44,741 nt of DNA. It comes from Myxococcales bacterium (GTDB lineage: Bacteria; Myxococcota_A; UBA9042). Where the stretch lies: positions 1 to 44,741 of the forward strand of contig JAGSHB010000027.1 of the NCBI GenBank assembly GCA_023954815.1, written 5' to 3'. The first letter of the stretch is position 1. Every line of letters begins with the position of its first letter. Positions 4,901 through 38,831 of the stretch are shown here, in pieces. A model generated the notes under the pieces. The model had not been told where the DNA came from. It worked only from the letters and a program-made list of their open reading frames with translations, and made no database searches. The translations under genes were made by a program, and so were the position numbers.

Positions 4901-7900
4901 CTTCTACGGGCTCGATCGTTCGTATGAGCGGGCTGACCAAGACCAAGAAGTGGAACAGCTCCTCGACCACCAGCTACATGGGCGGCGTCGCCTACCACAG
5001 CGGCACGGTCTACTCGATGCGCTACAACGGCAACCGGGTCTACGCCCACAACGCCAGCAACGGTGTGCGGAACACGAGCAAGGAGTTCAACCTCAGCACC
5101 TACACGGGCAGCACCTACGGCATCGGCATCATCGGCGGCCACTTCTACCGCTCGAGTGACAACGCGTGGATCTACCGCTACGGCTTCACTGTTGGCAGCA
5201 AGGGCACGATGGAGGCGATTCGTATCAAACTGTCCCAGGCTGGCCATGCGGTTGCCGCAACGAAGGATCGGATGTGCTCGGCTTCCTACAACGGCATGAC
5301 CACTTGCTACGCACTGCCTGCGAGCAGTGAGAGCTACGTCGTCCGTGATACCCACGTCGCTAGCCGGAGCCACGGTGCTGGTTACCACCACTTCCGCAAA
5401 GAGTACTGGTACCCGCAGTGGACCAGCGGCTACACGACGGTCTATCGCTACAACAGCAAGCGGCAATACCTCGGCGCGTTCAACTCTGGACAGCGCTACA
5501 TGATGCAGGTCAACGGCGACCGCAAGGCTGACATCTGGTACTCGGCGAACTGGGGCCACAACACCATCACGCGTCGTGACGGCATCAAGCAGCAGACGAC
5601 GCCGACCTGGTCGCGCAACATCGGCAGCACGGCCGGCGGCGTCGCGACTGACGGCTCCTACGTGTATGGCATGCGTTCGTCAGGCCCGACGGTCTACAAG
5701 CTGAGCCGCGGCACGGGTGGCGTGGTCAGCACTTTCAACCTGAGCGGCTGGTACACAAACAGCCTCTACGGCGGATTGTTCTACCATAACAACCGCTTGT
5801 ACAGAGCCACCAGCAACAACTACATCGGCCGTTACCAGATGAACGGCAAGTTCGACAACCAGTACTTCCAGACCCACTCGTCGATCTACACGACTACGTG
5901 GGACGGCAAGCATGTCTGCGTGACCAGCAGTGGTGGCGACGACTACCTGTACTGCTACACGCTGCCGTCGAACAAGACGACATACTCACCCAATACCTAC
6001 AGCGCGGGTAACTACGCCTACACGTACGCCAAGTACTACAACATGAACACGCGCAGTCACGGCGGCGGCTACATGCCGAAGCAGAAAGAGTTCTGGTATC
6101 CGCAATGGTCGGGTACGGGCGTGTACCGCTACAACGACGCCGGCGGCTACTTGGGCTCGTTCAACCTGCCCTACGACCAGAATATGCAGCTGTGGGGTGA
6201 GGAAGACGGCACGTTCTACACCGCAAACTGGGGGCGCTACTACGCGCGCGGCTACAACGCCAATCGCTCCATCAAGTGGAACTACTACCACGGCTACTAC
6301 ATGGGCGGCATCGCGTGTGACGACGACTACTGCTACGTCATGCGGCACAACAACAGCACCGTGTGGGTGCTCAACCGAAGCAATGGTGGAACGGTGCGCT
6401 CCTACGGCTTGTCGGGTTGGGCTGGCTCCACCTTGTACGGCGGTCTAGCGATTCATGGCGACGGCCTCATCCGGGCCGCTTCGGGTCGCTACATCCGGAC
6501 GTTCAACAAGTACACAGGCACGGCACAGGGCATCTCGTTCCGGGCTCAGGTCTATCCCTACAACATGGCCTTCCGTAATGGTCAGATGTGCGTGTCAGCT
6601 AACAATACCGCGGTGTACTGCTACGACATTACCGACCAGACCGGCAAAGACACGCCGCAGCTGTACGGCACGTCGAGTACGCAGCACATCTCCAACTACA
6701 ACTGGAGTCACGGCAACGGCTACCACCCCTATTACAAAGAGTTCTTTAAGCCGAGCTGGGCCGGCGAGCGCGTCTACCGCTACAACCAGAACCATAACTA
6801 CGTGGGGCAGTTCGATAGTGGGCAGCCGCAGATGATGGGTATCGCTGGTGAGACCACCAACGACGATTGGTACTCGGCGAACTGGGGTTACAACACGATT
6901 CGCAAGCACGACGGCATGAAGCGTCGGACCCTGTGGACGCGCAATATCGGAACGACGGCGGGCGCGGTAGCAGTAGACGCGAACTACGTCTACGGTATCC
7001 GCAACGGCAACGCGACGATCTACAAGCTCAACAAGTCCAATGGCTCGGTGGCCAGCACGTTCAATATGACCGGCGGTAGCTACCAGACATCAACGACTTA
7101 CGGCGGCGCGGCCGTGATCGGTAGCAAGCTCTATCGTCTGGCCAACAACGGTTATGTCGAGCGGTATGATCTGGCAAGCGGCAAGTACGACGCGCTGACG
7201 CTGTACCTCGGCACCAGCAACTACGGCGGCACGTTCGACCCGGTCTCTCGTGAGTTGTGCAGTACGGCCAGCAACGACTACGGCAAGTGCGTGACTTTGC
7301 CAGAGAAGCCGGCCACTGGCGCCGGTGGCGCCAACACGGTCACCGGTATCGACACGAAAAGCTACGGCGGCGGTTTCCATACCTACTACAACGAGTACTG
7401 GTACCCCGAGTGGAACGGCTCGGACTCGACCTACGTCTACCGTTACGACATCAACGCGAAGTACTTGGGCCGCTTCAACTCGAAGCTGCGCAGTGTGATG
7501 CAGGTGGAAGGCGACAAGGAGCACACCGACTACTACGCCGTGACACACAACGGCAGCTCGACCTACTCGCGCGTCTATCGCCTCAAGGCAAAGTCGGCGA
7601 CGAAGGTCTGGACGAGCCCCTACATCCGCACCTATTGGGGAGGCATGGGTCTCGACCAGAACTACGTGTACTCGATGTACTACTCCAACAACCGCCACGT
7701 GTACGCCTACAATCGGACCAATGGCCAGCGCCGCACGGACAAGGAATTCGACCTGACCGGTGACTTCAACGGTGGCTCGACGTACGGCATTGCTATTCGC
7801 AACGGCAAGCTCTACCGCACCAACACGAGTCGGTGGGTCTACGCCTACGACATGGGCACGCACGCGCACACTGGCGTGAAGTTCGATACGGCCAATACAC

Positions 7901-10900
7901 CGCAGTCCGTGGCGCTCAACAGCAAGAACGAGCTGTGCATCACCAGCACGTCGTCACCGCAGTTGGTCTACTGCTACCCGCTCGCCAACACTGGCGCGAA
8001 CTGGCAGGCGACGACCTACACCGTGCCCACCCATGGCGAGGGCGCTGGCTTCCACAACTACCGTCAGGAGTTCTGGTTCAACAACTGGAGCAGCGGCACC
8101 ACGCGGATGTACCGCTACAACAAGAACAAGGTGGCCATCGGGCACTTCGATGTTCCCCAGCGCTACATCCGCCAGTCTTGGGGTGACACAGGTACCGACC
8201 ACTACTACACGGCCAACTGGAGCGACAGCACCATTATCAAGCGTGCCGGGGTGGGTGCAACAGCGACTTGGAGCCGCAACATTGGCGGAAACCCGGGCGG
8301 TGTGGCCGGTGACGACAAAGCGATCTACGCCATGCGCTACAACAGCACGACCGTGTGGCAGCTCAACAAGCTCAATGGCTCTATTACGCGTACGTTCAAC
8401 CTCAGTGGCGACTACTCCGGCAGTCTCTACGGTGGCTTGGCGGTCGCCGACGGCAAGCTGTTCCGCGGCAATACCAGCGCGTGGGTGTACCGCTACGACC
8501 TGCTGACGGGTATCCACGACAAAGTGAAGTTCACCACACTGACGGGCATCTATGGCTCGGCGTTCGATGGCTCCGAGTACTGCGTGCACAACTCGAGTTC
8601 GTCCAACCAGAAGCTGTACTGCTACACCATCGTGACCACGAACTGCACCTTGGGTAATGACTGCGACGACACGCAAGCCGCGGTGAATCCGGGTAATAAG
8701 GAGCTGTGCGACGACATCGACAACACCTGCTCGGGCTACATCGACAAGGGCTGCGATGACGATGGCGACGGCTACTGCGATTCGAAAATGACGACGTATG
8801 GCACGCCGAGTGTCTGTCCGAAGGGTGGTGGTGACTGCAACGACCAGAACGTCAACGAATCGCCCGCATCCGTCGAAGTATGCGACGCCAAGGACAACAA
8901 CTGCGACGGCGTCATCGACAATGAAAACGCCCAGGGTTGCTCGACCTATTACTACGACGGCTACAATGACGGCGTTGGCCTGACCAAGTCGACCAAGTGT
9001 CTGTGCAAGGCAGATGGGCTCTATTCGACGACCACGTCAGGCGACTGCGATGATACTTGCCAGACGTGCGCGCCGACGAAACCGGAGATCTGTGATGGCA
9101 AGGACAACGACTGCGACGCACCGTTGTTGCCTGCACCGACCCTGAAGACGACCAAGTTGACGTTCAATCGGACCGACCTGATTCGCTACGGCGCTTGCTG
9201 GCACAAATACCGCAAGGAGTACTGGTTCACCCATTGGTCATCGGCCTACATCTACCGCTTCAACACCAGCGGCACCTACGTTGGCTCGTTCCACACCGGG
9301 CACAACTCGATGATGGGGCTCGCCTGTGACGACGTGACGGACGATTACTACACGGCCAACTGGAACTACGGCAACGTCACCAAACGGCGCTGGGGTTCGA
9401 CATTGTGGTCGCGCGGTATCGGCGCCTACCCATCCGGCGTGGCGTATGACTCGGACACGGTCTACGCGATGAAGTACAACAGCAACTACACGACGTTGTA
9501 CAAGTTCGCGCGTAACAACGGGTCGCCGAAATCCAACGTGGTGCTCAATGGCTGGGGTCAGTGGAGCAGCAGCAGCACCTACGCTCCATACGATGGTGTA
9601 CAGGTGGTCAACGGCAAGCTCTGGCGGATCACGCAAAACCGCTACGCTGCACGCTATGACCTGACGACTGGCAAGTTCGACGGCTACTACTTCTACGTGT
9701 CGCCTGGCGGCAGCAGCGTGGGCCACACCTTCATGAAGGACGGCAAACTGTGCGTCGGTAGCTACAACCGCAACGACATCTACTGCTACACGTTGCCCGA
9801 CTCAAACCTCGGCTCACTGACGCGCAAAGTGACGATGAACACGTACTCACACGGTGGTGGTTACCATCCGAAGTACAGTGAGTACTGGTACAACAACTAC
9901 GGCAACTCAACGATTTACCGCTACGACCGCAATGGTGTGTCGCGCGGCTCGTTCAACGGTGGCCATGTCAACGTGCGGCAGCTCACGGCCAACGCCACGG
10001 AAGATGCCTACTACATGGTTCGATACGGTAGCAGCACGAGTACATCGTACGTGGTCAAGAACAAGGGCAAGACGTCGACCAAGGTTTGGCAGTATGCACC
10101 GACGACCTACTTGTCCTCTGTGTCGTTGTCAGGCGCGACGGTCTACACCCAGCGCTACGAGAGCAGTCAGCGTCGCATCTACAAGATTGCGGCGAGCACC
10201 GGAAAGTACTTGGGCTACTTCGATCTGACCGGATCCATCGGCGGCTACAACTACGGCGGATTGCTGGTGACGCAGGACAAGGTCTACCGCGCATCCAGCG
10301 ACGGTTGGGTGCGGCGTTACGACCTGAACACAAAGGCCTACGATGGGTTGCAGCTGTACTACGGCAACTACCACAGCAACTACAACTTGGCGTGGGACGG
10401 CAACGAGATGTGCTTGTCGAGCGGTAACTCCAACGTGTTCTGCTACCGGTTGACCAGCAATGGCGCGCTCGTCGATGAGGATTGCGATCCCGACGGCGAC
10501 GGCTACTGCGATCAGAACAAGGTCACCATTGGCACGCCAAAGGTCTGCCCGAAGGGCGGCGCGGACTGCGATGAGACCAGCAAGAGCATCAACCCGCAGG
10601 GCATCGAGATCTGTAACGGCAAGGACGAAAACTGCAACGGTGTGCTCGACGAGGGCGCGGACATCTGGTGCGAAGAGGGTAAGAACGCCCAGGCCAAGTG
10701 CATCGGCGGCAAGTGCAAGATTTACGCGTGCAACACCGATTATGTGGACTTGAACGGCCTGGGATCGGATGGCTGTGAGTGCTTGGACACCGATGGCTGG
10801 GAGCCCAACAACGCGTGCAACCAGGCGACGACGCTCGATACCAACCTGGCTGACACGGGCGGGTACCGCTACGTTACGGCTCGCCTGATCAGCTACACCG

Positions 10901-11508
10901 ATCAGGATTGGTACAAGTTCCGTGCAGTGGATAACACCGATTCGGGCACGGCTGTGTGCGATCGGTTCAACGTGCGTGTGCGCTTTGTGCAGAACCCGAG
11001 TAACGGTCTGCGCTTCGAGATCTATCGCGGAGCCTGCCCGGGCGGGAAGTACATGAAGGAAGCGCATAACCCGAATAACAAGGTGGATACTGCGGTGTGC
11101 TGCGGTCAGACCGACTTCAACTGGTTCACCAACTTCAAGGGCTACAAGCGCAACTACTACTCGTCGGGTTACTCGGAGTGGGGCGAGTGCAACTGCACGA
11201 CCTCTGGTTCACGCTACGATCGCTCACGTCAGGGTTGGAACTACGGGCCTTGGAATACGGGCTACGGCGGCAACGGCGCTGGTGGTCCCTATGGCCGCTG
11301 GAATGCGAGCTCAGGTGTGACCGATCGCAATACGAAGAGCCAGTCCTACGGGTACGACCACACTCGTTGTCACAACGACACGGCGTACTTCTACATCAAG
11401 GTGTACCGCGGCGCGTCGATCACGCAGTGCGGCGATTACCGTCTTGAGATCACCAATGGCGTCTACGGCGCACCCTCCAATGGGCGCACTGGTTACATGG
11501 TGAAGTAG
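1..11508 (+). CDS. Giant modular MopE-repeat / propeller-like surface protein (5' partial)
   Basis: The frame is open from base 1 to a TAG at 11506-11508, so the start lies outside the window and at least 3835 residues are encoded. It is a mosaic. MopE-type Asp/Cys repeats (short units such as DGDGYCD, GGDCND, EICDGKDNDCDG) occur at least 22 times. They are interrupted by a C-type-lectin-like domain (residues ~646-774), a Cys-rich CC..WD..C module (~1353-1404), and nine ~210-residue aromatic/Gly-rich modules (~1090-1299, ~1554-2880, ~3050-3485). A C-terminal region opens with a WEPNN motif and contains DQDWYKF, as in bacterial pre-peptidase C-terminal domains. MopE-type repeats are known to be putative metal-binding motifs of secreted proteins. 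I infer a secreted or surface, Ca2+/metal-stabilised adhesin- or sheath-like protein. No membrane anchor is visible at the C-terminus, and no signal peptide can be judged because the N-terminus is missing. Confidence 0.93.
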   Translation, partial: KGGNDCNDADASVYKGKAAEVCDNKDDDCNGVTDNGCDDDKDGHCDAKLVMGNPLSTLCSKGTGDCDDFNFDVHPGATEVCNNKIDDDCDGSQNDENAAGCLDFYFDADNDGFGISAKKCLCTVSGFFRAKVAGDCGDNNTAIKPGATEACDNVDNDCNNVVDDENATGCKTYYLDNDGDGYGLALGKCLCKTANNYTATKKDDCNDSVKAVNPGQTEFCNDIDDNCNGAIDEACNKDGDDYCDSSKKTVGFPNVCKKGGGDCNDNDPNVSQSGAEICDDADNDCDGSTDEGCDDDNDDHCDANLKIVGTPKTCLKGGNDCNDSVVGINPSAAEVCGNTVDENCNGSYNDVGATGCTNYYIDKDSDTYGKNGTLPKCMCIKAGDYTATKSGDCDDANYLINNGVAELCDGKDNDCDGKTDEGCDDDLDGYCDSGMTTIGTPAVCLKGGGDCNDLVKAINPAAQEICGNSVDENCDNSLNSNDAASCTTYYYDGDGDGFGVSVSKCLCTPEGGFKATKAGDCDDTKTTINPAAKEVCGDGLDNNCNGTVNEVNATNCIKFYKDGDKDGFGGTTSQCQCVAEGEFLATTSGDCDDTNNTVKPGGKEICDAIDNNCNSKTDEGCDDDGDGHCDFQMQITPTATCIKSTPKCDGVTLNNICYQAFPILKTYSSSQTACKALGGTLTPINSLQENSTVRSAVTKACGSTAVAWIGADDLALEGVIKWQAGNAFNYANWAGGSANNTATNDALQMLANGTWSMTAPGVSSCYVCKLGKVNNGSGDDCDDTNKLISPSATEVCDDKDNNCDGVKDDKCDSDGDGYCNKTATVIGSPLVCNKGTGDCDDSNNTVFPGKTEMCDGADNDCDGQLDEGCDTDGDDYCTTAMAVVGTPAVCPKGGGDCLDSNKAVNPGATEVCGDSLDNNCAGGVDEICNDGDGDGYCKGNQAPSTACPKGGGDCNDSNKAINPGAKEDCSTVIDDDCNGLTNEQGALNCKEFYPDEDKDGFGYGSKKCMCTQSGAESALVGGDCNDTDANINPNAIEICDGVDNTCAGSIDKGCDEDGDDFCAAGMLITDNVACPKTGTAAGPGCTVKTPTYIGTVISMNTRSHGGGFHPKRQEYWYPQWSGQYIYRYDVNYKYLGSFYANQSQMMDVQGDLTDDAWYSANWGYNTISRREGMKNVGATWNYNIGSTSGAVGVDSTYVYGMRHSGSTVYVLARATGKLSRTFNLNTTTGSLYGGVTIHEGKLYRSSSDRWTYRYDLNGTHDGMKFLAAPSIYNTAFDGKKLCFSANSSSVYCYDLGQYDCKTGDDCKDTDATVNPLAEELCDDKDNNCNSQVDETCDKDNDGFCSSDAKLPFGNCCSAHTGKGCTVSTIQSCLCAKPGYGYCCTIAWDAKCAAAVKTTGCNACNYPSTCPAGGNDCDDGTNLVNPKATESCATEGDDNCDGKSNDINSLGCSKFYLDADGDKFGGASFKCMCKPEGKYNSTVTGDCDDTNPEIYNGLADEICDNKDNNCNSVTDEGCDDDGDKFCDITKIVKDNTICPNSPTSKPTCGSELVSKEGLTPVTIGLNHRSYGGGYHAKRNEFWYPQHASSNTYVYRYEHAPPYKPVGSFNSGLPYIRQITNDGVTDDWFAALYIGSSTGSIVRMSGLTKTKKWNSSSTTSYMGGVAYHSGTVYSMRYNGNRVYAHNASNGVRNTSKEFNLSTYTGSTYGIGIIGGHFYRSSDNAWIYRYGFTVGSKGTMEAIRIKLSQAGHAVAATKDRMCSASYNGMTTCYALPASSESYVVRDTHVASRSHGAGYHHFRKEYWYPQWTSGYTTVYRYNSKRQYLGAFNSGQRYMMQVNGDRKADIWYSANWGHNTITRRDGIKQQTTPTWSRNIGSTAGGVATDGSYVYGMRSSGPTVYKLSRGTGGVVSTFNLSGWYTNSLYGGLFYHNNRLYRATSNNYIGRYQMNGKFDNQYFQTHSSIYTTTWDGKHVCVTSSGGDDYLYCYTLPSNKTTYSPNTYSAGNYAYTYAKYYNMNTRSHGGGYMPKQKEFWYPQWSGTGVYRYNDAGGYLGSFNLPYDQNMQLWGEEDGTFYTANWGRYYARGYNANRSIKWNYYHGYYMGGIACDDDYCYVMRHNNSTVWVLNRSNGGTVRSYGLSGWAGSTLYGGLAIHGDGLIRAASGRYIRTFNKYTGTAQGISFRAQVYPYNMAFRNGQMCVSANNTAVYCYDITDQTGKDTPQLYGTSSTQHISNYNWSHGNGYHPYYKEFFKPSWAGERVYRYNQNHNYVGQFDSGQPQMMGIAGETTNDDWYSANWGYNTIRKHDGMKRRTLWTRNIGTTAGAVAVDANYVYGIRNGNATIYKLNKSNGSVASTFNMTGGSYQTSTTYGGAAVIGSKLYRLANNGYVERYDLASGKYDALTLYLGTSNYGGTFDPVSRELCSTASNDYGKCVTLPEKPATGAGGANTVTGIDTKSYGGGFHTYYNEYWYPEWNGSDSTYVYRYDINAKYLGRFNSKLRSVMQVEGDKEHTDYYAVTHNGSSTYSRVYRLKAKSATKVWTSPYIRTYWGGMGLDQNYVYSMYYSNNRHVYAYNRTNGQRRTDKEFDLTGDFNGGSTYGIAIRNGKLYRTNTSRWVYAYDMGTHAHTGVKFDTANTPQSVALNSKNELCITSTSSPQLVYCYPLANTGANWQATTYTVPTHGEGAGFHNYRQEFWFNNWSSGTTRMYRYNKNKVAIGHFDVPQRYIRQSWGDTGTDHYYTANWSDSTIIKRAGVGATATWSRNIGGNPGGVAGDDKAIYAMRYNSTTVWQLNKLNGSITRTFNLSGDYSGSLYGGLAVADGKLFRGNTSAWVYRYDLLTGIHDKVKFTTLTGIYGSAFDGSEYCVHNSSSSNQKLYCYTIVTTNCTLGNDCDDTQAAVNPGNKELCDDIDNTCSGYIDKGCDDDGDGYCDSKMTTYGTPSVCPKGGGDCNDQNVNESPASVEVCDAKDNNCDGVIDNENAQGCSTYYYDGYNDGVGLTKSTKCLCKADGLYSTTTSGDCDDTCQTCAPTKPEICDGKDNDCDAPLLPAPTLKTTKLTFNRTDLIRYGACWHKYRKEYWFTHWSSAYIYRFNTSGTYVGSFHTGHNSMMGLACDDVTDDYYTANWNYGNVTKRRWGSTLWSRGIGAYPSGVAYDSDTVYAMKYNSNYTTLYKFARNNGSPKSNVVLNGWGQWSSSSTYAPYDGVQVVNGKLWRITQNRYAARYDLTTGKFDGYYFYVSPGGSSVGHTFMKDGKLCVGSYNRNDIYCYTLPDSNLGSLTRKVTMNTYSHGGGYHPKYSEYWYNNYGNSTIYRYDRNGVSRGSFNGGHVNVRQLTANATEDAYYMVRYGSSTSTSYVVKNKGKTSTKVWQYAPTTYLSSVSLSGATVYTQRYESSQRRIYKIAASTGKYLGYFDLTGSIGGYNYGGLLVTQDKVYRASSDGWVRRYDLNTKAYDGLQLYYGNYHSNYNLAWDGNEMCLSSGNSNVFCYRLTSNGALVDEDCDPDGDGYCDQNKVTIGTPKVCPKGGADCDETSKSINPQGIEICNGKDENCNGVLDEGADIWCEEGKNAQAKCIGGKCKIYACNTDYVDLNGLGSDGCECLDTDGWEPNNACNQATTLDTNLADTGGYRYVTARLISYTDQDWYKFRAVDNTDSGTAVCDRFNVRVRFVQNPSNGLRFEIYRGACPGGKYMKEAHNPNNKVDTAVCCGQTDFNWFTNFKGYKRNYYSSGYSEWGECNCTTSGSRYDRSRQGWNYGPWNTGYGGNGAGGPYGRWNASSGVTDRNTKSQSYGYDHTRCHNDTAYFYIKVYRGASITQCGDYRLEITNGVYGAPSNGRTGYMVK
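1936..2322 (+). other. C-type-lectin-like domain inside the giant protein
   Basis: About 129 residues with the order of landmarks of a C-type-lectin-like domain: an opening CDGV..NNICY, the helix SSSQTACKALGGTL, the ENSTV segment, AWIGADD, IKWQAG, YANWAGG, and a closing CYVCKL. Cys residues sit at the expected positions of the two conserved disulfides. The canonical WND Ca2+/sugar site is not intact (the region reads GTWSM), so carbohydrate binding of the classical type is doubtful. Confidence 0.75.
2323..3246 (+). repeat. MopE-type Asp/Cys repeat block 2 (5 units)
   Basis: Five further Asp/Cys units follow the lectin-like domain, with cores such as EVCDDKDNNCDG and EMCDGADNDCDG. Spacing and composition match block 1, so the lectin-like domain looks inserted in the middle of one continuous array. 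Confidence 0.82.
3268..3897 (+). repeat. Propeller-like module P1
   Basis: First of nine copies of a ~210-residue module. It opens with NTRSHGGGFHPK followed by EYWYPQWSG and a YRYD strand, runs through several strands ending in aromatic residues (YVYGMRH, TFNL, LYGG, WTYRYDL), and closes with VYCYDLG. Sub-repeats of ~40 residues suggest a five-blade beta-propeller-like fold. The fold is inferred from pattern only. I do not recognise a named family. Confidence 0.75.
3898..4656 (+). repeat. MopE-type block 3 (3 units) with a CC..WD..C insert
   Basis: Three Asp/Cys units (cores ELCDDKDNNCNS, ESCATEGDDNCDG, EICDNKDNNCNS). Between the first and second lies a Cys-dense insert at 4057-4212 (GNCCSAH, SCLCA, YCCTIAWDAKC). 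This resembles the small CC..C.C..CC..WD..C modules that recur in secreted Myxococcota proteins. Confidence 0.75.
4660..8640 (+). repeat. Propeller-like modules P2-P7 in tandem
   Basis: Six head-to-tail copies, starting near 4678, 5335, 6036, 6690, 7340 and 8017. Each opens with (N/S)-(R/W)-SHGGGY- or a variant, followed by E(Y/F)WYPQW and YRY, and each ends with CY-LP or a variant (TCYALP, LYCYTLP, VYCYDIT, CVTLP, VYCYPL, LYCYTI). The copies have diverged at most positions but keep the Tyr/Trp/Gly framework. This indicates old duplications under selection rather than recent slippage. Confidence 0.8.
8641..9146 (+). repeat. MopE-type block 4 (3 units)
   Basis: Three Asp/Cys units (cores ELCDDIDNTCSG, EVCDAKDNNCDG, EICDGKDNDCDA) separate propeller-like modules P7 and P8. 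The last unit is shortened after its core and passes directly into P8. Confidence 0.8.
9147..10455 (+). repeat. Propeller-like modules P8-P9
   Basis: Two more copies of the ~210-residue module. P8 opens with the divergent IRYGACWHKYRKEYW and ends IYCYTLP. P9 opens with NTYSHGGGYHPKYSEYW and ends VFCYRLT. They are followed by the last MopE-type unit. Confidence 0.78.
10465..11505 (+). other. C-terminal region: last MopE unit, EPN/PPC-like domain, Trp/Tyr/Gly-rich insert
   Basis: One final Asp/Cys unit (core EICNGKDENCNG) is followed by a Cys-bearing linker and a WEPNN...DQDWYKF segment. That pairing is typical of bacterial pre-peptidase C-terminal (PPC) domains. A ~65-residue insert at about 11140-11340 is rich in Trp, Tyr, Gly and Asn before the domain closes with YRLEITNG. 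No sorting motif such as a C-terminal PEP-CTERM or LPXTG signal is seen. Confidence 0.6.
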
Positions 11509-11637: not shown

Positions 11638-13080
11638 CTAGCCGTCTAGGAGCGCTTTCAGCTTGGCGTTGACCACCTTGGCGTTGGCTTTGCCCTGCAA
11701 TTGACGCATCACCTGGCCTACGAAAAATCCGATCAGCTTGTGCTTGCCACTTCGGTAGGCGGCTACCTGACCTGGATTTGCGGCGATGATGGCAGCGAGC
11801 ATGTCGTCCAGTGCGCCATCGTCTTGTTCGATCAAGCCAGTATGGTCACGTGCGGATTCGAGGGCGTCGGCAAAGCTCGCATCGGCGGCGAATGCTGCGA
11901 CCAGCACGTCGGTCAGCATCTTGTTACTGAGCTTGCCGTCTCGCCACTGATCGTGAACTTCGGCCAGTTGAGTCATCGCTGTGTCGATGTCTGCCCAGGA
12001 GCGTTCGCTCTTGTTGAGCGCGCCTGCAAGCCGCCCGGTCAGAAAGCTCGCGAGGCTGCGAGCGCGCTCGGGGCTCTGATCTTGGCCGAGAGTCCGTTCA
12101 TAGCGATCGGCGGTTTCCGGGTCTTCACAGAGCAGGCGTGCCATCTCGGTATCCAAACCAAGGTCGCTCACAAACCGGCTCCGCCGCTGCGCAGGTAGCT
12201 CGGGAATCGTCGCCGCCCAGGCTGTGAGATCTTCAGCCGCAATCAGCAGCGGCGGCAGGTCTGGATCTGGGAAATACCGATAGTCGTGCGCCTGTTCCTT
12301 GCTGCGCATCGCGGCGGTACGACCCTTGTCTACGTCCCACAGGCGCGTTTGCTGGATGATGGTCTCGCCGGCGGTGATTTGGCGGATCTGGCGGGCGGAC
12401 TCATAGCCGATGGCGTCTCGAATCCCCCGAAATGAATTCAGGTTTTTGATCTCACAACGGGTACCCAGGGTGGTCTGGCCCACCCGGCGTACGCTGACGT
12501 TGGCATCGCAGCGAAAGGAGCCCTCTTCCAGGTTGCCGTCGTTGACCCCGATGTAGATCAGAATCGCCCGCAGCTCCTTGAGGTAAGCCACCGCTTCATC
12601 CGCTGAACGCAGGTCGGGCTCGCTCACGATCTCGATCAGCGGTACGCCGGCACGGTTCAGATCGACATAGCTGCCGCCAGCGCGATGGCTCGACTTCCCG
12701 GCATCCTCTTCCATGTGAATGCGCGTGATGCGGATACGCCGTGGGCCCTCACCCGCATCGATGTCCAGATGTCCTGCGAGACAGATCGGTTTGTCGAACT
12801 GCGAAATCTGATAGCCCTTGGGCAGATCTGGGTAGAAGTAGTTCTTGCGCGCAAAAACCGAGTGTCGCTGCACCTCGCAGTTGGTAGCGAGGCCCGCAAT
12901 CGCCGCCATGCGCACGGCTTCCTTGTTGAGGACAGGTAGGGCGCCGGGAAGGCCCAAACTCACCGCATCAACGTGGCTATTGGGGGCGCCGCCGAATGCC
13001 GCAGATGCCGGACCAAAGAGCTTACTCTCGGTGCGCAGCTGGGCGTGAACTTCCAGACCGATGACCAGTTCCCACGCCAT
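11638..13080 (-). CDS. gatB: Aspartyl/glutamyl-tRNA(Asn/Gln) amidotransferase subunit B
   Basis: 480 residues, the usual GatB length. GatB activates the side-chain carboxylate of Glu-tRNA(Gln) or Asp-tRNA(Asn) with ATP and transfers ammonia released by GatA. The N-terminus (WELVIGLEVHAQL) and the segments KNYFYPDLPKGYQISQ and RTGVPLIEI-like NRAGVPLIEIVSEPD are family signatures. The C-terminal helical tRNA-binding region (YqeY-like) is present. The ATG at 13080 overlaps the gatA stop by one base (TGATG); a GTG three bases upstream is less likely. It is the last gene of the co-directional run, so translation is probably coupled to gatA. Confidence 0.96.
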   Translation of the reverse strand: MAWELVIGLEVHAQLRTESKLFGPASAAFGGAPNSHVDAVSLGLPGALPVLNKEAVRMAAIAGLATNCEVQRHSVFARKNYFYPDLPKGYQISQFDKPICLAGHLDIDAGEGPRRIRITRIHMEEDAGKSSHRAGGSYVDLNRAGVPLIEIVSEPDLRSADEAVAYLKELRAILIYIGVNDGNLEEGSFRCDANVSVRRVGQTTLGTRCEIKNLNSFRGIRDAIGYESARQIRQITAGETIIQQTRLWDVDKGRTAAMRSKEQAHDYRYFPDPDLPPLLIAAEDLTAWAATIPELPAQRRSRFVSDLGLDTEMARLLCEDPETADRYERTLGQDQSPERARSLASFLTGRLAGALNKSERSWADIDTAMTQLAEVHDQWRDGKLSNKMLTDVLVAAFAADASFADALESARDHTGLIEQDDGALDDMLAAIIAANPGQVAAYRSGKHKLIGFFVGQVMRQLQGKANAKVVNAKLKALLDG

Positions 13081-14552
13081 CACTGGCCTCCTGCGATCGC
13101 CGCCTGAAGGGCAGCTGGGCCACTGAGCCGCTCCTGGCGTTGTTCTACGGCTGCGCCAACTTGAAACAGGGTGGTCTCCTTGAAGGAACCGGCGATGAGC
13201 TGCACCGCGAGCGGCAGCCCTTCATCGCCAAGCCCCACGGGAACGCTCATGGCCGGAAGACCGGCGAGGTTGGCGGCCGTGGTGTAGATGTCCATCTGAT
13301 AGGCTGCGATTGGATCGTGGGTATGCGCGCCCAGCGGCCAAGCGGCACTCGGCGCGGTGGGGCCAAGGATCACATCGCACGCAGACAACGCAGTCTGCAG
13401 ATCATCGTGGACCAAGCGCCGCACGCGACATGCGCGGTCGTAGTAGGCGTCGTAGTAGCCGGACGACAGGGCCCACGTACCCATCACGATGCGCCGCTGC
13501 ACTTCGGGACCAAACCCTTCGGCGCGACTCCGGGCATACAGCGTGTCCAGGGTGTCGCTGCTATGGAGCTCGGCCCTGTGGCCGTAGCGCACGCCATCGT
13601 AGCGTGCCAAGTTGGCCGAGGCCTCGCTCATGGCGATGAGGTAGTAGGCCGGCACAGCGAGGTGCGCGTGGGGGAGCTCGATAGCGGCCCCAGTGGCGCC
13701 AGCTGCAAGGAGCGCGTCGTACGTGGTCATCACCGCGCGGTGTACCTCAGGGCTCAATCCTGCGAGCCAGCTGTGGACGAGACCCACACGCAGCCCGGCC
13801 ACGGGCAACTCGCACGCTGCTTCGTAGTCGCCGATTGGCTCTGAGCGACTGGTGGCGTCGGCCGCACAAGGTCCCGCGATGACGGAGAACAGACGCGCGG
13901 TATCGCGTACCGTCGCCGCCATGGGGCCGACTTGATCGAGGGATGAGGCATAGGCCACGACACCTGAACGCGACACCCGCCCGTATGTTGGTTTGAGCCC
14001 AACCACCCCGCAAAATGCGGCCGGAAGCCGTACGCTGCCTCCCGTATCTGTGCCCAGCGAGCCATACCCGTAGCCCGCAGCCACCGCCGCTGCAGAGCCG
14101 CCAGACGAGCCGCCGGGAACCCGGTCGAGCCCCCATGGGTTGCGTACCGGTCCGGTCGCCGCGGTCTCATTGGTCGAGCCCATGGCGAACTCGTCCAAGG
14201 ACGTCTTTCCCAGCAGGACCGCCCCTGCTGCGCGTAGTCGGGCGATCACACTGGCGTCACGCGGCGCGACATAGCCCGCGAGCATGTTGGAGCCAGCGGT
14301 CAGGGGCTGGCCGCCGACTGCGATGAGATCTTTGATGGTGATGGGAACGCCAGCGAGCGGACCTATCGGTTGTCCCGCTGCGACCGCCTCATCGACTGCG
14401 GTTGCCTGGGCGCGCGCACCGGCTGCATCGACGTGCACCATGGCGTTGAGGTGAACGTCGGCCGATTCGATGCGCGCCAGCGCTGCGTTGGTCGCATCTA
14501 GCGCACTGAGGCTGCCGGCTGCGATGGCCGATGCGCATTCAATAAGCGTCAT
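13080..14552 (-). CDS. gatA: Aspartyl/glutamyl-tRNA(Asn/Gln) amidotransferase subunit A
   Basis: 490 residues, typical of GatA, an amidase-signature enzyme that hydrolyses glutamine to supply ammonia to GatB. The catalytic Ser-cisSer-Lys triad is visible as K74 (ITIKD), S149 (GGSSGGS) and S173 (GTDTGGS). The start chosen is the ATG at 14552, preceded by GGAG at good spacing. A GTG at 14576 would add eight residues and lacks support. It follows gatC by a short gap and overlaps gatB. All catalytic residues are present, so the enzyme should be active. Confidence 0.96.
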   Translation of the reverse strand: MTLIECASAIAAGSLSALDATNAALARIESADVHLNAMVHVDAAGARAQATAVDEAVAAGQPIGPLAGVPITIKDLIAVGGQPLTAGSNMLAGYVAPRDASVIARLRAAGAVLLGKTSLDEFAMGSTNETAATGPVRNPWGLDRVPGGSSGGSAAAVAAGYGYGSLGTDTGGSVRLPAAFCGVVGLKPTYGRVSRSGVVAYASSLDQVGPMAATVRDTARLFSVIAGPCAADATSRSEPIGDYEAACELPVAGLRVGLVHSWLAGLSPEVHRAVMTTYDALLAAGATGAAIELPHAHLAVPAYYLIAMSEASANLARYDGVRYGHRAELHSSDTLDTLYARSRAEGFGPEVQRRIVMGTWALSSGYYDAYYDRACRVRRLVHDDLQTALSACDVILGPTAPSAAWPLGAHTHDPIAAYQMDIYTTAANLAGLPAMSVPVGLGDEGLPLAVQLIAGSFKETTLFQVGAAVEQRQERLSGPAALQAAIAGGQ

Positions 14553-25822: not shown

Positions 25823-26953
25823 CTATTTCTGTTCTTTGAAGCAATAGCCGAGGTGATTCGGCCGTGGTTTGCCGTCGGCGTCCTTCAGTGGGTAGCAGGC
25901 GTCCCCAGCGGCGCAGCCGAATTCGGTGAGTTTGCCGCTGGTGTCGCACTTGCGCACACAGAGTGTCGCTTTTCCGCCGCTGACACAGGTGGTTGCCGCA
26001 TCACAGTCGATCAACTGGTCGCACGTCTGCAAAAGCCCTGTGTTGCCAGCAGATGCGCACGTCGGCGGGTCGTTCGCAACGCATTTATCCCCGGAGTTGC
26101 AGCCTTCATTCGACACCAGATTGCAGTGCTCAAGGGCGCAGAACCCCTGACCAGCTGGGAGGGTTTGCGGCGATTGCGCTTTGGGGCTGAGGTACTGTAG
26201 CGCCTGGCAGATATACGCTTCATCGCACTTTTCAGTGCCGGTCGCCGGGTTTTCTGTCGTGCCGATCACGCAAGCCCGAACGCAGGTCTGAGAGGTCTTT
26301 CCATCTTGAGATACCGCCGCGCAGATGCCCCCTACGACGCAGTGGCCCGAAGCCACACAAGACGCGCCAAGCTTGGCCTCCCCTGGGGAGAACGTCACCG
26401 TTTTCCCATCGACGACGGTGGTTAGTTTCTCGGTCTTGTCGATGCAGCGCGGTTCCACGCCGCCGACACATTTTTGCCCATCCTTACAGCCCTTGTTCGA
26501 CGCGGGGCTGCACTGCGGCGCGGAGCAATAGCCGAGATTGTGGGTACCGGCCGTCGTCACCCAGAGGCACGCTGACTGCTCAAGTTCTGAAATATTCTCT
26601 GCTTTTCCGATGTCTTTACAGCTGTTTGGTTTTCGAATGTCGCATCGACGCTGACAGGTTCGAACAAACTTGGCCCCTTCTAGGCACAGGTGATTGGGCG
26701 CGCAGTTTTCCTTGGTTTTACAGGCCCCGCCGTGGGTGACATCGCCGGCGTCTGTACAGAGCGGCTCGTCGATTCCGACGCAGGTTTGCCCAGCGGGGCA
26801 GCCTGAATCAGTAAGAATGTTGCAAGTCTCCGGATCGGAGGCAGAGCCCAACGGACCGCAGCTCGTCAAGCTGCAGCACAGGATGGACAACACGGCGGAG
26901 GCGAACTGGCCACGGGAGCTACGAGTCGAGCGAAAGACCTTCATGCTGGCCAT
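25823..26953 (-). CDS. Cys-rich lipoprotein with three EGF/dickkopf-like repeats
   Basis: 376 residues from the ATG at 26953; a second ATG is at 26944. The longer frame to 27313 overlaps the divergent hydrolase gene and is rejected. The signal peptide carries a lipobox (CCSLTSC). The mature part has about 30 Cys arranged in three ~110-residue repeats. Each starts with a GC(P/K/N)xGxxCVG-type unit (GCPAGQTCVG, GCKDGQKCVG, GCNSGDKCVA), followed by a P-x-C element and a C-x5-C-x5-C element. This type is common in Myxococcota outer-membrane lipoproteins of unknown function. Disulfides imply folding in the periplasm or at the surface. Confidence 0.82.
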   Translation of the reverse strand: MASMKVFRSTRSSRGQFASAVLSILCCSLTSCGPLGSASDPETCNILTDSGCPAGQTCVGIDEPLCTDAGDVTHGGACKTKENCAPNHLCLEGAKFVRTCQRRCDIRKPNSCKDIGKAENISELEQSACLWVTTAGTHNLGYCSAPQCSPASNKGCKDGQKCVGGVEPRCIDKTEKLTTVVDGKTVTFSPGEAKLGASCVASGHCVVGGICAAVSQDGKTSQTCVRACVIGTTENPATGTEKCDEAYICQALQYLSPKAQSPQTLPAGQGFCALEHCNLVSNEGCNSGDKCVANDPPTCASAGNTGLLQTCDQLIDCDAATTCVSGGKATLCVRKCDTSGKLTEFGCAAGDACYPLKDADGKPRPNHLGYCFKEQK

Positions 26954-27070
26954 GCTGGCCGATTCCGCGGTGGACTGCAAAGCGCCAGGGCTGCACATAT
27001 TTGGCCGCCTTGCCGAGACGCAAAGCCGGACATAGGCTGGCAGCGAATCCCGCAAGCGTTCGGAGTCCCC

Positions 27071-27934
27071 ATGGCAGACCAGCAGCATCAAGTAGCGACG
27101 GAAAACGGTCACCTGGTGACGGGTGACGGCATCAAGCTGGTGTGGCGCTGGGACCGACCTGAGCAGGCCGTCGGCACCGTGCTGATCGCTCACGGCTTCG
27201 GGGAGTACCTCAGGCGCCACACGCATGACGCGGACGCTTTCGTCGCTGCTGGGATCGCAGTGCTGCGCTACGACATGCGCGGTCATGGCAACAGCGGCGG
27301 TAAGCGCGGTCACGTCGACAGGTTTGCCGACTACATCTCAGATCTCAAGACGATGCTCACGCTGGCCCACGACAAAGGGACCGGGCCCGTTGCGCTCCTC
27401 GCCCACTCTCAGGGTGGTCTCATCGCAACCAAAGCGCTGCTCGCTGGCGCTTTGCCGGTCAAGGCTGTCGTGCTGAGCAACCCGGCGATTCACACCAAAG
27501 CGCATGTGCCCGAGTGGAAGAAATTTGCCGCCAAGATTCTGTCTCGCGGCCTACCCGGTTTCATCTTGCCGACCGGATTGCCAGCCACCGCGATCAGCCG
27601 AGATCCAGCTTCCGTTCGAGATTATGAGGACGATCCACTGATTTTCGGCAATGGTACCGCGCGTTGGGGATGGGAGTTCATGAGCGCTCAGCGCGAAGTC
27701 GAGCGCGAGAAGCTCACCATGACCGTTCCGCTCCTCGTGCAGCTCAGCACCGCCGATCAGATCATCGACGCGGAGTTCAGCCGCAGCTGGTACGCCACGG
27801 CGCAAGGCGATGATATTACGGTCACAGACTGGGCTGGCTTCTATCATGAGCTATACAACGAGCCACCAGACGAGCGGCAAAAAGTCCTCGCTGAACTCAC
27901 CGAATGGACCAAGGCTCGCCTGACCGCCGACTGA
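27071..27934 (+). CDS. Alpha/beta hydrolase, monoacylglycerol lipase/lysophospholipase type
   Basis: 287 residues, serine aminopeptidase S33/Hydrolase_4 family. The oxyanion-hole HG motif is H41-G42, the nucleophile elbow is AHSQGG with S113, the acid is D229 (STADQII) and the base H259 (FYHELYNE). All catalytic residues are therefore visible. Members hydrolyse monoacylglycerols or lysophospholipids; the exact substrate is not shown. No signal peptide, so cytoplasmic. The ATG at 27071 has a GGAG a few bases upstream. It precedes the kinase gene by 38 bp. Confidence 0.9.
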   Translation: MADQQHQVATENGHLVTGDGIKLVWRWDRPEQAVGTVLIAHGFGEYLRRHTHDADAFVAAGIAVLRYDMRGHGNSGGKRGHVDRFADYISDLKTMLTLAHDKGTGPVALLAHSQGGLIATKALLAGALPVKAVVLSNPAIHTKAHVPEWKKFAAKILSRGLPGFILPTGLPATAISRDPASVRDYEDDPLIFGNGTARWGWEFMSAQREVEREKLTMTVPLLVQLSTADQIIDAEFSRSWYATAQGDDITVTDWAGFYHELYNEPPDERQKVLAELTEWTKARLTAD

Positions 27935-34923: not shown

Positions 34924-35925
34924 ATGACTGAGCACAGCACCATGGACGAGCAGCAGCTGCGCGAGAAGATCGCCTGGGTCTCCGAGCATACAGACGCGCT
35001 GCGCCGCACCATCGGTTCCGTCATCGTTGGGCAGAAAGAGGTGGTCGAAGGCGCCATGATTGGCCTGTTTGCCGGCGGTCATGTGTTGCTAGAAGGCGTG
35101 CCCGGCGTCGGTAAGACGATGTTGGTTCGCACGCTCGCTAGCGCCGTAAGCCTTGAATTTTCGCGGGTTCAGTTCACACCTGACTTGATGCCGACCGATA
35201 TTGTGGGCACCCACGTGCTCGGCGATGACGGCCGCGGTGGGCGCAGCTTCAACTTCCAGCAGGGGCCGATCTTCACGAACATTCTGCTCGCCGACGAGGT
35301 CAACCGCGCCACGCCGAAGACGCAGTCTGCGCTGTTGGAGGCCATGGCTGAGGGCCGGGTGACGGTCGGTCGGGAGACCCACCAGCTCGCCAAGCCGTTT
35401 TTCGTGATGGCGACCCAAAACCCCCTGGAGATGGAGGGCACCTATCCGCTGCCTGAAGCCCAGCTCGACCGCTTTATGTTCAAGCTCGACGTGCCCTTTC
35501 CTTCGCAGGAAGATCTCCACGAAATCGTCGCCCGCACCGTGCGTACCGAGACAACGGAGGTGGTGCCGGTGCTGCGAGGCGAGGACATTCTGGCGGTCCG
35601 AGAGATCGCCCTCGGCTGCCCCATCGCCCATCACGTGGTCGATCTGGCGATTCGGCTGGTGTCCGCTACCCATGGCCAGGCAGATGCGGCCAAAAAGTAC
35701 CTGCGTGCCGGCGCGAGTCCGCGTGCGGTGCAAGCCCTGATCATCGGCGCAAAGCTGCGAGCGCTCTTCGACGGGCGGACCAACGCCGCCCTGGAAGATG
35801 TACGGGAGCTCGCCACGCCCGTTCTTCGCCACCGGGTCCTGCTCAACTTTGACGCCGAGGCCGATGGGGTCAATCCAGCCCAGGTCCTCGAAGCGATCAT
35901 CTCCGAGGTCGAGCGCGGGACCTAG
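34924..35925 (+). CDS. MoxR family AAA+ ATPase
   Basis: 333 residues. Walker A GVPGVGKT (58-65), Walker B-like LLADEVNRATPKTQSALLEAM, the MEGRVTVG-like AEGRVTVGRETH segment, sensor 1 ATQNPLEMEGTYPLPEAQLDRF and the C-terminal lid are all present. MoxR ATPases act as chaperones that insert metal or cofactors or remodel protein complexes, working with VWA proteins that carry MIDAS sites. The ATG at 34924 has a GGGGGA site upstream. It lies 35 bp after the DUF4175-like gene and 51 bp before DUF58, in the standard operon order. Confidence 0.96.
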   Translation: MTEHSTMDEQQLREKIAWVSEHTDALRRTIGSVIVGQKEVVEGAMIGLFAGGHVLLEGVPGVGKTMLVRTLASAVSLEFSRVQFTPDLMPTDIVGTHVLGDDGRGGRSFNFQQGPIFTNILLADEVNRATPKTQSALLEAMAEGRVTVGRETHQLAKPFFVMATQNPLEMEGTYPLPEAQLDRFMFKLDVPFPSQEDLHEIVARTVRTETTEVVPVLRGEDILAVREIALGCPIAHHVVDLAIRLVSATHGQADAAKKYLRAGASPRAVQALIIGAKLRALFDGRTNAALEDVRELATPVLRHRVLLNFDAEADGVNPAQVLEAIISEVERGT

Positions 35926-35976
35926 CGTGCGACAGACACCGGGCACAACACTCCAGCATTTCTTGAGGCAAATCCC

Positions 35977-36879
35977 CTGAGCGACGCCATCCGCACAGAC
36001 CTGTTCGACGCCGCGTTCCTGAGAAGGATCGAGCACCTATCGCTGTTGGCGCGGCGTATGGCGTCGTCGGGTCAACGTGCCCAGCGGCGTGCCAAGAAAG
36101 TGGGCAGCGGCATCGAATTCGCCGATCACCGCTCCTACTCTCCAGGTGATGATCCCAGGCACATCGATTGGAAGGTCTTTGGCCGTTCTGAGCGTCTGTT
36201 GCTGCGACAATATGAGGAGGAGGAAGATCTCTCCGTCTACTTTCTCCTCGATCGCAGCTCGTCCATGGGTATGGCGCCGGTGGGTGAGCGCAGCCTGTTT
36301 GAGCGGGCGCTGCAGATCACCGCCGCGCTGAGCTACATCTCGCTGTCCAATCTCGATCGCGTCGCTGTGGTCCCATTTGCCGATCGTTCCGCCCGGCCGC
36401 AGCGACCTGTGCGCGGAAAGGGCCAGTTCTTCAGCATTTTGCGCCAACTCTCCGCGCTGGAGTTGGGCGGTCAGACCCACCTCAAGGCGGCCCTGCGGGA
36501 CTTTCCGCGCTATCGACCACGGCGTGGGTTGGTGGTGATTTTGAGCGACCTCTATGACGTCGAGGGTCTCGGTGACAGCCTGCGCTACCTTCGCCTCAAC
36601 GGCTTTGAACCCATGGTGGTGCAGCTGGGCGACGAACGGCTGTTTTCGTCCGATCACTGGGGCGATCTCGCCTTTGTCGACTGTGAGACGGGCGAACGTC
36701 GCGAGGTGACGCTGACCCCGGCCCTCCTGCGCGCTTACCACGAGGCATTCGAGCGCCTGTCGGCACGCGTCTCCGCGACGACACGGGAGGTCGGGGCGAA
36801 ATACCTACGAGTCGATGTCTCCGTACCCTTCGATGAAGTCGTGATGAAGCTCTTCCGGAGCGGAGGGTTTCTCGGGTGA
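35977..36879 (+). CDS. DUF58 family protein, probable CTG start
   Basis: 300 residues. The signature GSGIEFADHRSYSPGDDPRHIDW is intact (split here: GIEFADHRSY, SPGDDPRHIDW), followed by a VWA-like part with D92-R-S-S-S and SDLYD. DUF58 proteins partner MoxR ATPases. The nearest ATG/GTG/TTG start in frame is TTG 36046. Using it would remove the family-typical N-terminus (LFDAAFLRRIEHLSLLARR), which is encoded in frame upstream. Between the MoxR stop and 36046 there is no canonical start. A CTG at 35977 sits eight bases after TTGAGG, a good ribosome site. I therefore place the start there. The stop overlaps the next gene by one base. Confidence 0.88.
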   Translation: MSDAIRTDLFDAAFLRRIEHLSLLARRMASSGQRAQRRAKKVGSGIEFADHRSYSPGDDPRHIDWKVFGRSERLLLRQYEEEEDLSVYFLLDRSSSMGMAPVGERSLFERALQITAALSYISLSNLDRVAVVPFADRSARPQRPVRGKGQFFSILRQLSALELGGQTHLKAALRDFPRYRPRRGLVVILSDLYDVEGLGDSLRYLRLNGFEPMVVQLGDERLFSSDHWGDLAFVDCETGERREVTLTPALLRAYHEAFERLSARVSATTREVGAKYLRVDVSVPFDEVVMKLFRSGGFLG

Positions 36880-38831
36880 TGGGCGCCACCATGCCATGGC
36901 AGCAGTGGGCTACGCTCGGCGGTATCGTGCTGGGCGCTATCGCTCTTTTGTACCTGCTGCGGCCCCGGCGTCGGCAGGTTCAAGTGCCGTTCGGTGGGCT
37001 GTGGCAGGAGGTGTTGGCCAAGGCCGACGCCCGCAGTCTCGGTCAACGGTGGCGCCGGCTCTTGTCGTGGCTGCTGATGAGCTTGATCGCGTCCTTGCTG
37101 CTGAGTGCAATCGGTCTCGACCACCTGGGGTTGCAGGGGTGTAGCGAGCCGCCAAAGGTGACGCCGCGCCATACCGCCGTCATTGTCGATGCGTCCGCGT
37201 CGATGAAGACCCAAGACGGTGCCGCCCACATCGGCGGTCAGCGTTCCCGCCTGTCCGAAGCGAAGGAGCGCGCGCTGGCCGTGATCGCTGCTGCGCGGCC
37301 CGGGGAACAGATGCTGATCATGCGGGCATCGGGGCGGCTAACGACCCTGTGCGGGTGGACTACCGACAAGACGATTTTACGCAAGGCCGTCTCCGCGATT
37401 GAGGCGACCGACGGCGGGTTTGATCTCCAGCGGGCGTTGCATGCAGCGAGTGATGCGGTGATGGGGCGGGCGCATGCCCAGACCTTGGTGGTGACCGATG
37501 GCGGGCCGCCGACCCGCGATGTCAGCAGCCGTGCGGACGTCTCGTTTGTGATGGTGGGTCCGCTCCGTGACAGCGAGCGCAAGCATGGCACCGGCATCGA
37601 CAACTTGGCCGTGGAGCGGGTCAGCGTGCGGGCGCAGCCGGGCGATGCGGCGCGCGGCGTGTTGATGGTGAAAGTGCGCAATGACAGGGCTGGTCCGGTG
37701 ACGTGCCGGGTGGAGATCGCGGCGGACTCCGATGCGAAAACAGCAGCTGAATTCCAACAAAAAGTCCGCGCGGTCCGCACATTGGTCGTCCCAGCGGCTG
37801 GTCATGCGTGGCTACGTGTCAGCGATCTGGACCTGTCCGTCGGCCGATTTGCCGCGCGCGTGAGGCCGCCCGAAGATGCCGCCTGGCGGGACGTGGCCTC
37901 GTGGGACGACTGGGGCTTTTCGGTGTTGTCCGAACGTAAGCGCTTGGCGGTGCTGCTCGTCACAAAAGGCAATCTCTTCCTGGAAGCTGCCCTGATCGCG
38001 AATGATCGTTTCGTCGTCAAACGCATCGCGGCCGATGCGTACGACCCGAAGGCCAAGTGGCCAGGTATTGACGTTGTGGTCCTCGATCAAGTGCCCGATG
38101 GCCTACCGATTGGGCTACCCGGCTTGCGTTTGCAGTTGGCGCCGCCGCCGGGGGCCACGGCCGGATCGCTCCATGAAGCCGGGGATTTGGTGGTCCGCGA
38201 TCACGGTCATCCGGTCATGCGTGGGGTCACGTTTCACGACGCGAATCTCGATAAGGTGCGGCCCCTGCCGACGCTCGCCGGTGATGTGGTGTTGGCCGGC
38301 GAACGCAAAGGTGCAGCCGTGCTGATCGCCCGAGAAGATGAGGTGCGGTCGCTCGAATTTGGCATCGATCTGATGGAGACCGACCTGGGTGCGCGCTATG
38401 CCTTGCCCGTGTTCATGGGCAACGCTGTCGATTGGTTGGCGGGCGAAGAGGATGGCCTCTTGTCGGCGCTGGTCATGGGGCGCCCCTTTTCCGTGCAGGC
38501 GCCCGCCCGCTCAGCGGATTGGCGTTGGTCTGCGCCCGGTGCGAAGCCCGTACCCGCGCGCATGTCTGACTCCCATCTGGTCGGCACGACCGAAGTCCAA
38601 GGAATCCATCAATGGCACAGGCCCCAGGGCCAGCACGTGGCTAGGCCAACGCGCCTGCCCAAGACCGAAAAACCGGGGCTGGGCCGGGCTCCGAAGGCCC
38701 GGTGGCGCCAGCCGATTTTGCCCAAGAGCCCTGAGAAGACGCGCCTTCCGATCTGGATCTGGCTGCTGCTAGGCGGGCTCGGGCTCTTGCTTGTGGAGTG
38801 GCTGCTCTATCACCGTCGGAGGACTGTATGA
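36879..38831 (+). CDS. BatA-like N-terminal domain / VWA membrane protein
   Basis: 650 residues. Two N-terminal membrane segments (~9-27, ~63-82) match the BatA-type start (LYLLRPRRRQVQVPFGGLW). A VWA domain has the MIDAS-like D104-A-S-A-S and a VVTDGG strand. A long beta-rich middle and an amidotransferase-like region (~385-520) follow, then a Pro/Lys linker and a C-terminal membrane segment (~630-648). Start ATG 36879 overlaps the DUF58 stop (TGATG). The stop overlaps the next gene as ATGA. It is the inner-membrane part of the MoxR system, likely a substrate or partner of the ATPase. Confidence 0.88.
   Translation: MGATMPWQQWATLGGIVLGAIALLYLLRPRRRQVQVPFGGLWQEVLAKADARSLGQRWRRLLSWLLMSLIASLLLSAIGLDHLGLQGCSEPPKVTPRHTAVIVDASASMKTQDGAAHIGGQRSRLSEAKERALAVIAAARPGEQMLIMRASGRLTTLCGWTTDKTILRKAVSAIEATDGGFDLQRALHAASDAVMGRAHAQTLVVTDGGPPTRDVSSRADVSFVMVGPLRDSERKHGTGIDNLAVERVSVRAQPGDAARGVLMVKVRNDRAGPVTCRVEIAADSDAKTAAEFQQKVRAVRTLVVPAAGHAWLRVSDLDLSVGRFAARVRPPEDAAWRDVASWDDWGFSVLSERKRLAVLLVTKGNLFLEAALIANDRFVVKRIAADAYDPKAKWPGIDVVVLDQVPDGLPIGLPGLRLQLAPPPGATAGSLHEAGDLVVRDHGHPVMRGVTFHDANLDKVRPLPTLAGDVVLAGERKGAAVLIAREDEVRSLEFGIDLMETDLGARYALPVFMGNAVDWLAGEEDGLLSALVMGRPFSVQAPARSADWRWSAPGAKPVPARMSDSHLVGTTEVQGIHQWHRPQGQHVARPTRLPKTEKPGLGRAPKARWRQPILPKSPEKTRLPIWIWLLLGGLGLLLVEWLLYHRRRTV

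Follow-up and report, generated by a model that had tools for sequence, protein, structure and literature searches.

The use of CTG as a start codon in bacteria is already established, although annotated examples amount to 20 of ~85,000 genes (0.024%), according to figures quoted in PMC11983097. The rep genes of the IncFIB plasmids (P307, pO157, F) start at CTG, as demonstrated by N-terminal sequencing, and this codon works together with a good ribosome-binding site; its replacement by CTC abolishes function, the start is often misannotated 14 codons downstream at a GTG, and CTG was proposed to yield just enough protein (PMC11983097). In E. coli, expression from CTG was ~10x below expression from TTG (Hecht 2017 as cited in PMC11983097). 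When E. coli complexes assembled with the M1 initiator variant were examined by cryo-EM, the first-position partners on CUG proved too far apart for strong pairing; a lower stability of the CUG complexes was also seen with the wild-type tRNA (PMC11497404).

MoxR-type AAA+ ATPases beside VWA-type partners are known from the RavA-ViaA and NorQ-NorD pairs. A cell contains ~350 RavA and ~90 ViaA molecules (PMC3893208), and a NorQ hexamer (six subunits) binds one NorD (PMC9976466). The locus described here has the same arrangement; however, the partner is a DUF58 protein, and no CTG start is described for the known pairs in the passages cited. Like IncFIB rep, the DUF58 gene combines CTG with a good Shine-Dalgarno (SD) sequence (GGAGG in rep) and keeps both among relatives, and it is alike rep in all features that can be tested on sequence. 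Unlike rep, a plasmid replication gene with a proven start, it is chromosomal, belongs to an uncultured myxobacterium-like organism and is known from sequence comparison. We consider it a well-supported chromosomal case of a CTG start.

Start region of the DUF58 gene

The analyzed window, i.e., the whole stretch of 44,741 nt, is contig C54 of a draft genome (G000; 6.44 Mb, 314 contigs, 97% complete). The moxR translation contains the Walker A motif GVPGVGKT. The DUF58 protein, read from 35977, matches Pfam DUF58 (PF01882; E=2.2e-31, 109.2 bits against a gathering score of 23.4), carries a VWA-like signal (VWA_2, E=1.7e-9) and has the MIDAS motif DxSxS in the form DRSSS, found by inspection of the translation.

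Table 1. Features of the moxR-DUF58 locus (positions in the window)
Feature	Position	Strand	Details
moxR, MoxR-type AAA+ ATPase	34924..35925	+	ATG start, TAG stop 35923-35925; Pfam AAA_3 E=2.4e-63, AAA_lid_2
moxR-DUF58 gap	35926..35976	+	51 nt; sequence not conserved; without in-frame canonical start
Shine-Dalgarno core GAGG	35965..35968	+	spacer to CTG of 8 nt
CTG, probable DUF58 start codon	35977..35979	+	CTG in 3 of 3 congeners
DUF58 / VWA-like gene	35977..36879	+	300 codons plus TGA (36877-36879)
TTG, first in-frame canonical start	36046..36048	+	would remove conserved residues; no SD found near
VWA-domain gene	36876..38831	+	Pfam VWA_2 E=1.3e-13; GTG start overlaps DUF58 stop

The original prediction stated that ATG, GTG and TTG are absent between the moxR stop and TTG 36046. 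Sequence inspection confirmed this for the DUF58 frame, which is open from 35926 to its TGA; however, GTG 35927 and TTG 35963 are present in the +1 frame; this frame ends at TGA 35978-35980, a stop that overlaps the CTG. Of the TTGAGG predicted to lie at good spacing before the CTG, the spacing held, but the useful SD core is GAGG only. The predicted family-typical N-terminus upstream of 36046 was also found: family-conserved residues start ~5 codons past the CTG, and the segment DLFDxxFLxRxExLxLLARR, common to family members with ATG, GTG or TTG starts, is encoded between 35977 and 36046 or just beyond. The DUF58 gene therefore very probably starts at CTG 35977. In the predicted RNA structures the CTG is partly paired in G000 and G002, and folding of the start regions of the three congeners yielded no consistent hairpin across the start.

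Congeners and competing starts

The two nearest sequenced relatives, G003 and G002, share the CTG. Their DUF58 proteins are 86% (G003) and 81% (G002) identical to that of G000, with gene DNA identities of 78% and 75%. The start region reads GGAGGCTCCCC-CTG-AGC in G003, with the SD GGAGG 6 nt from the CTG, and GGAGTCTTCG-CTG-AGC in G002, with GGAG 6 nt from it, so that CTG AGC preceded by an SD at 6–8 nt (8, 6 and 6 nt) is present in all three congeners. The gap between the moxR stop and the CTG measures 51 nt in G000, 49 nt in G003 and 61 nt in G002, and the latter two gaps are free of ATG, GTG and TTG in every frame. Between its CTG and a conserved Ile, G002 carries two additional codons; its SD keeps the distance to the CTG and not to the Ile, which indicates the CTG, rather than the Ile codon, as the start.

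The first 23 aligned codons of the three congeners comprise 8 identical, 10 synonymous and 5 with amino-acid changes (18 of 23 identical or synonymous), a pattern similar to that of the rest of the gene (84 identical, 146 synonymous and 70 with amino-acid changes, out of 300); the region upstream of 36046 thus appears to be translated. Pairwise dN among the three ranges between 0.11 and 0.15 and dS between 0.86 and 1.19 (0.11 and 1.10 for G000 against G003), which indicates an intact gene evolving under purifying selection. Any substitution of the C in CTG yields a canonical start. Since the three species agree at 38 of 129 fourfold sites (29%), keeping this C is by itself statistically not strong.

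A gene finder blind to CTG would choose TTG 36046 or ATG 36058, the first in-frame canonical starts, and the upstream homology would then be a relic. We regard this as very unlikely: codons 6-22 are conserved at the protein level with synonymous changes and agree with relatives in the family whose starts lie further upstream, and no SD was detected close enough to serve TTG 36046. A start at codon 5 (35989), where the Ile codon is kept in the three congeners as ATC, ATT and ATC, has precedents in bacterial AUC/AUU starts (infC, rnhC in Listeria; PMC13068326). It is equally improbable, however, given an SD spacing of 20, 18 and 24 nt in comparison to 8, 6 and 6 nt for the CTG, and an Ile that is also conserved in many relatives starting upstream with ATG, GTG or TTG.

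An error in the sequence could mask a canonical start, either through a wrong base at 35977 or through an indel that has put GTG 35927 out of frame, and both the +1 frame opened by this GTG, running to TGA 35978, and the draft state of the assembly would fit. The same CTG in the separate genomes G003 and G002, with their gaps free of canonical codons, makes an error exceedingly improbable; the case raised in the original prediction, relatives with ATG or GTG combined with a read error, does not hold for the two closest relatives. Hardly any weight is given to DUF58 synthesis through moxR stop readthrough or through a frameshift fusion with MoxR. In G000 the moxR stop does share the frame of DUF58 and precedes the CTG by 17 codons, but in G003 and G002 it lies outside that frame and the gap length differs, so readthrough is not a shared mechanism; furthermore, no conserved peptide spans the gap. 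With CTG 35977 as the start, gene finders limited to ATG, GTG and TTG would shorten the DUF58 protein by ~23 residues in all three species.

Family-wide start codons and the level of DUF58 synthesis

We examined 106 DUF58 loci from many phyla (Myxococcales, Planctomycetota and others) that were testable for a canonical start. The automatic test flagged five of them: G000, G003 (twice), G002 and L049. In L049, inspection revealed a TTG immediately past the point where the alignment begins, and this locus was rejected as a CTG-type case. A canonical start before the homology is thus missing only in the three congeners, and a wider class search found no additional orthologues. More distant family members start DUF58 with ATG, GTG or TTG. 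G001, assigned to the genus of G000 but more distant and on a long branch (62% identity), starts DUF58 with ATG. In this locus (L007), a CTG directly precedes the ATG (GCC CTG ATG GCT). The G001 ATG may be a late replacement beside an older CTG.

A tree of 25 DUF58 proteins grouped the three CTG species with G001. Two changes are required, and the same count fits a replacement of CTG in G001 or a double gain; CTG accordingly arose within the genus of G000 and was either replaced in G001 or gained twice. The DUF58 start codon is labile in the family, with at least 11 changes on the tree. We compared moxR and DUF58 starts in 20 family loci, choosing each start by eye on the basis of its SD and location. 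ATG was the best candidate for moxR in 20/20 (ambiguous with GTG in L021) and the start of DUF58 in 6/20 (Fisher p=3e-6, for species that are not independent).

At the CTG, the 30S subunit would bind GAGG 8 nt before 35977, and the ordinary initiator tRNA would pair imperfectly with CUG through a first-position mismatch. We infer that initiation takes place at the CTG, presumably with formyl-methionine as the first residue (M-SDAIRTDLFD...), and at a low rate. The DUF58 protein would be expected to be scarce because CUG initiation is weak (PMC11497404; Hecht 2017 as cited in PMC11983097). Scarcity fits the difference in ATG use between moxR and DUF58, and by analogy it fits the ATPase excess in the studied MoxR/VWA pairs, DUF58 being neither NorD nor ViaA. 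A deliberate down-tuning of DUF58 is plausible on both counts. Of the original interpretation, the CTG start is upheld, and deliberate low-level synthesis is consistent with weak DUF58 starts beside moxR ATG.

The weak codon could have been retained since MoxR rings would require fewer DUF58 copies than MoxR subunits. CTG would then be a selected throttle, with ATG for moxR and CTG for DUF58 in one operon setting the MoxR excess, and related lineages would meet the same need via GTG or TTG; we put this reading, together with its extension to the relatives, forward tentatively. It competes with a neutral accident, in which the CTG start is real but derives from a single ancestral change that was not replaced and has no regulatory role; the CTG start itself is not at issue between them. 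A neutral origin, to which we give not quite an even chance, is favored by the share of unchanged fourfold sites, by the ATG of G001 and by the lability of the start codon on the tree. Against it, any change of the C would create a stronger canonical start, and none was fixed in the three species despite a dS of ~0.9-1.2; moreover, DUF58 starts are weak family-wide while moxR starts with ATG. Since proven bacterial CTG starts are few, a chromosomal CTG kept across species would be a useful test of whether weak starts set the ratios of MoxR and VWA partners.

Genome survey, translation apparatus and neighboring genes

We surveyed 891 kb with 524 called genes, made up of parts of 60 contigs together with the window and amounting to 14% of the genome. 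The filter required an in-frame CTG preceded by an SD, a distance of 12 or more codons from it to the first canonical start, and a positive coding score; it was used instead of a codon-usage screen, which is underpowered for 20-codon extensions. Only DUF58 passed, and a second SD-preceded CTG-start gene was not found among the 524 genes, a lower bound as the filter is blind to CTG starts with a canonical codon nearby. Comparison with G003 and G002 had pointed to two other apparent missing starts in the window (26807-27934, and 11638-13221 on the minus strand); both were rejected, having an ordinary ATG on inspection.

We found 40 tRNA genes, 30 typed loci covering most of them, with three tRNA-Met. 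One of these, L215, has a C1:A72 mismatch and a GGG:CCC stem, which we take to be the hallmarks of an initiator tRNA. The initiator tRNA looks standard and the translation apparatus ordinary; with no second case in 891 kb, the use of CTG looks gene-specific and not routine in this genome. As in infC and other genes with AUU or AUC starts, the rare start codon would lower initiation of DUF58. Unlike infC, which is controlled through IF3, feedback by IF3 on DUF58 is not implied, and infC of the three congeners (L115 in G002, L117 in G000, L118 in G003) has an apparent ATG start (MGFRRSRG...). An ATG is available for infC in several other family members too, unlike the AUU/AUC typical elsewhere. 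This family may lack the usual start-codon feedback by IF3.

The VWA gene downstream of DUF58 starts with GTG preceded by GGAGG in both G003 and G002. Its GGAGG sits within the DUF58 end, which suggests translational coupling between the two genes. Across the window and loci L003-L019, GTG is the usual start of this VWA gene, with GGAGG 9 nt upstream inside the DUF58 end. At the other end of the window, positions 1-11508 form one open frame of >3,800 codons that enters from the window edge.
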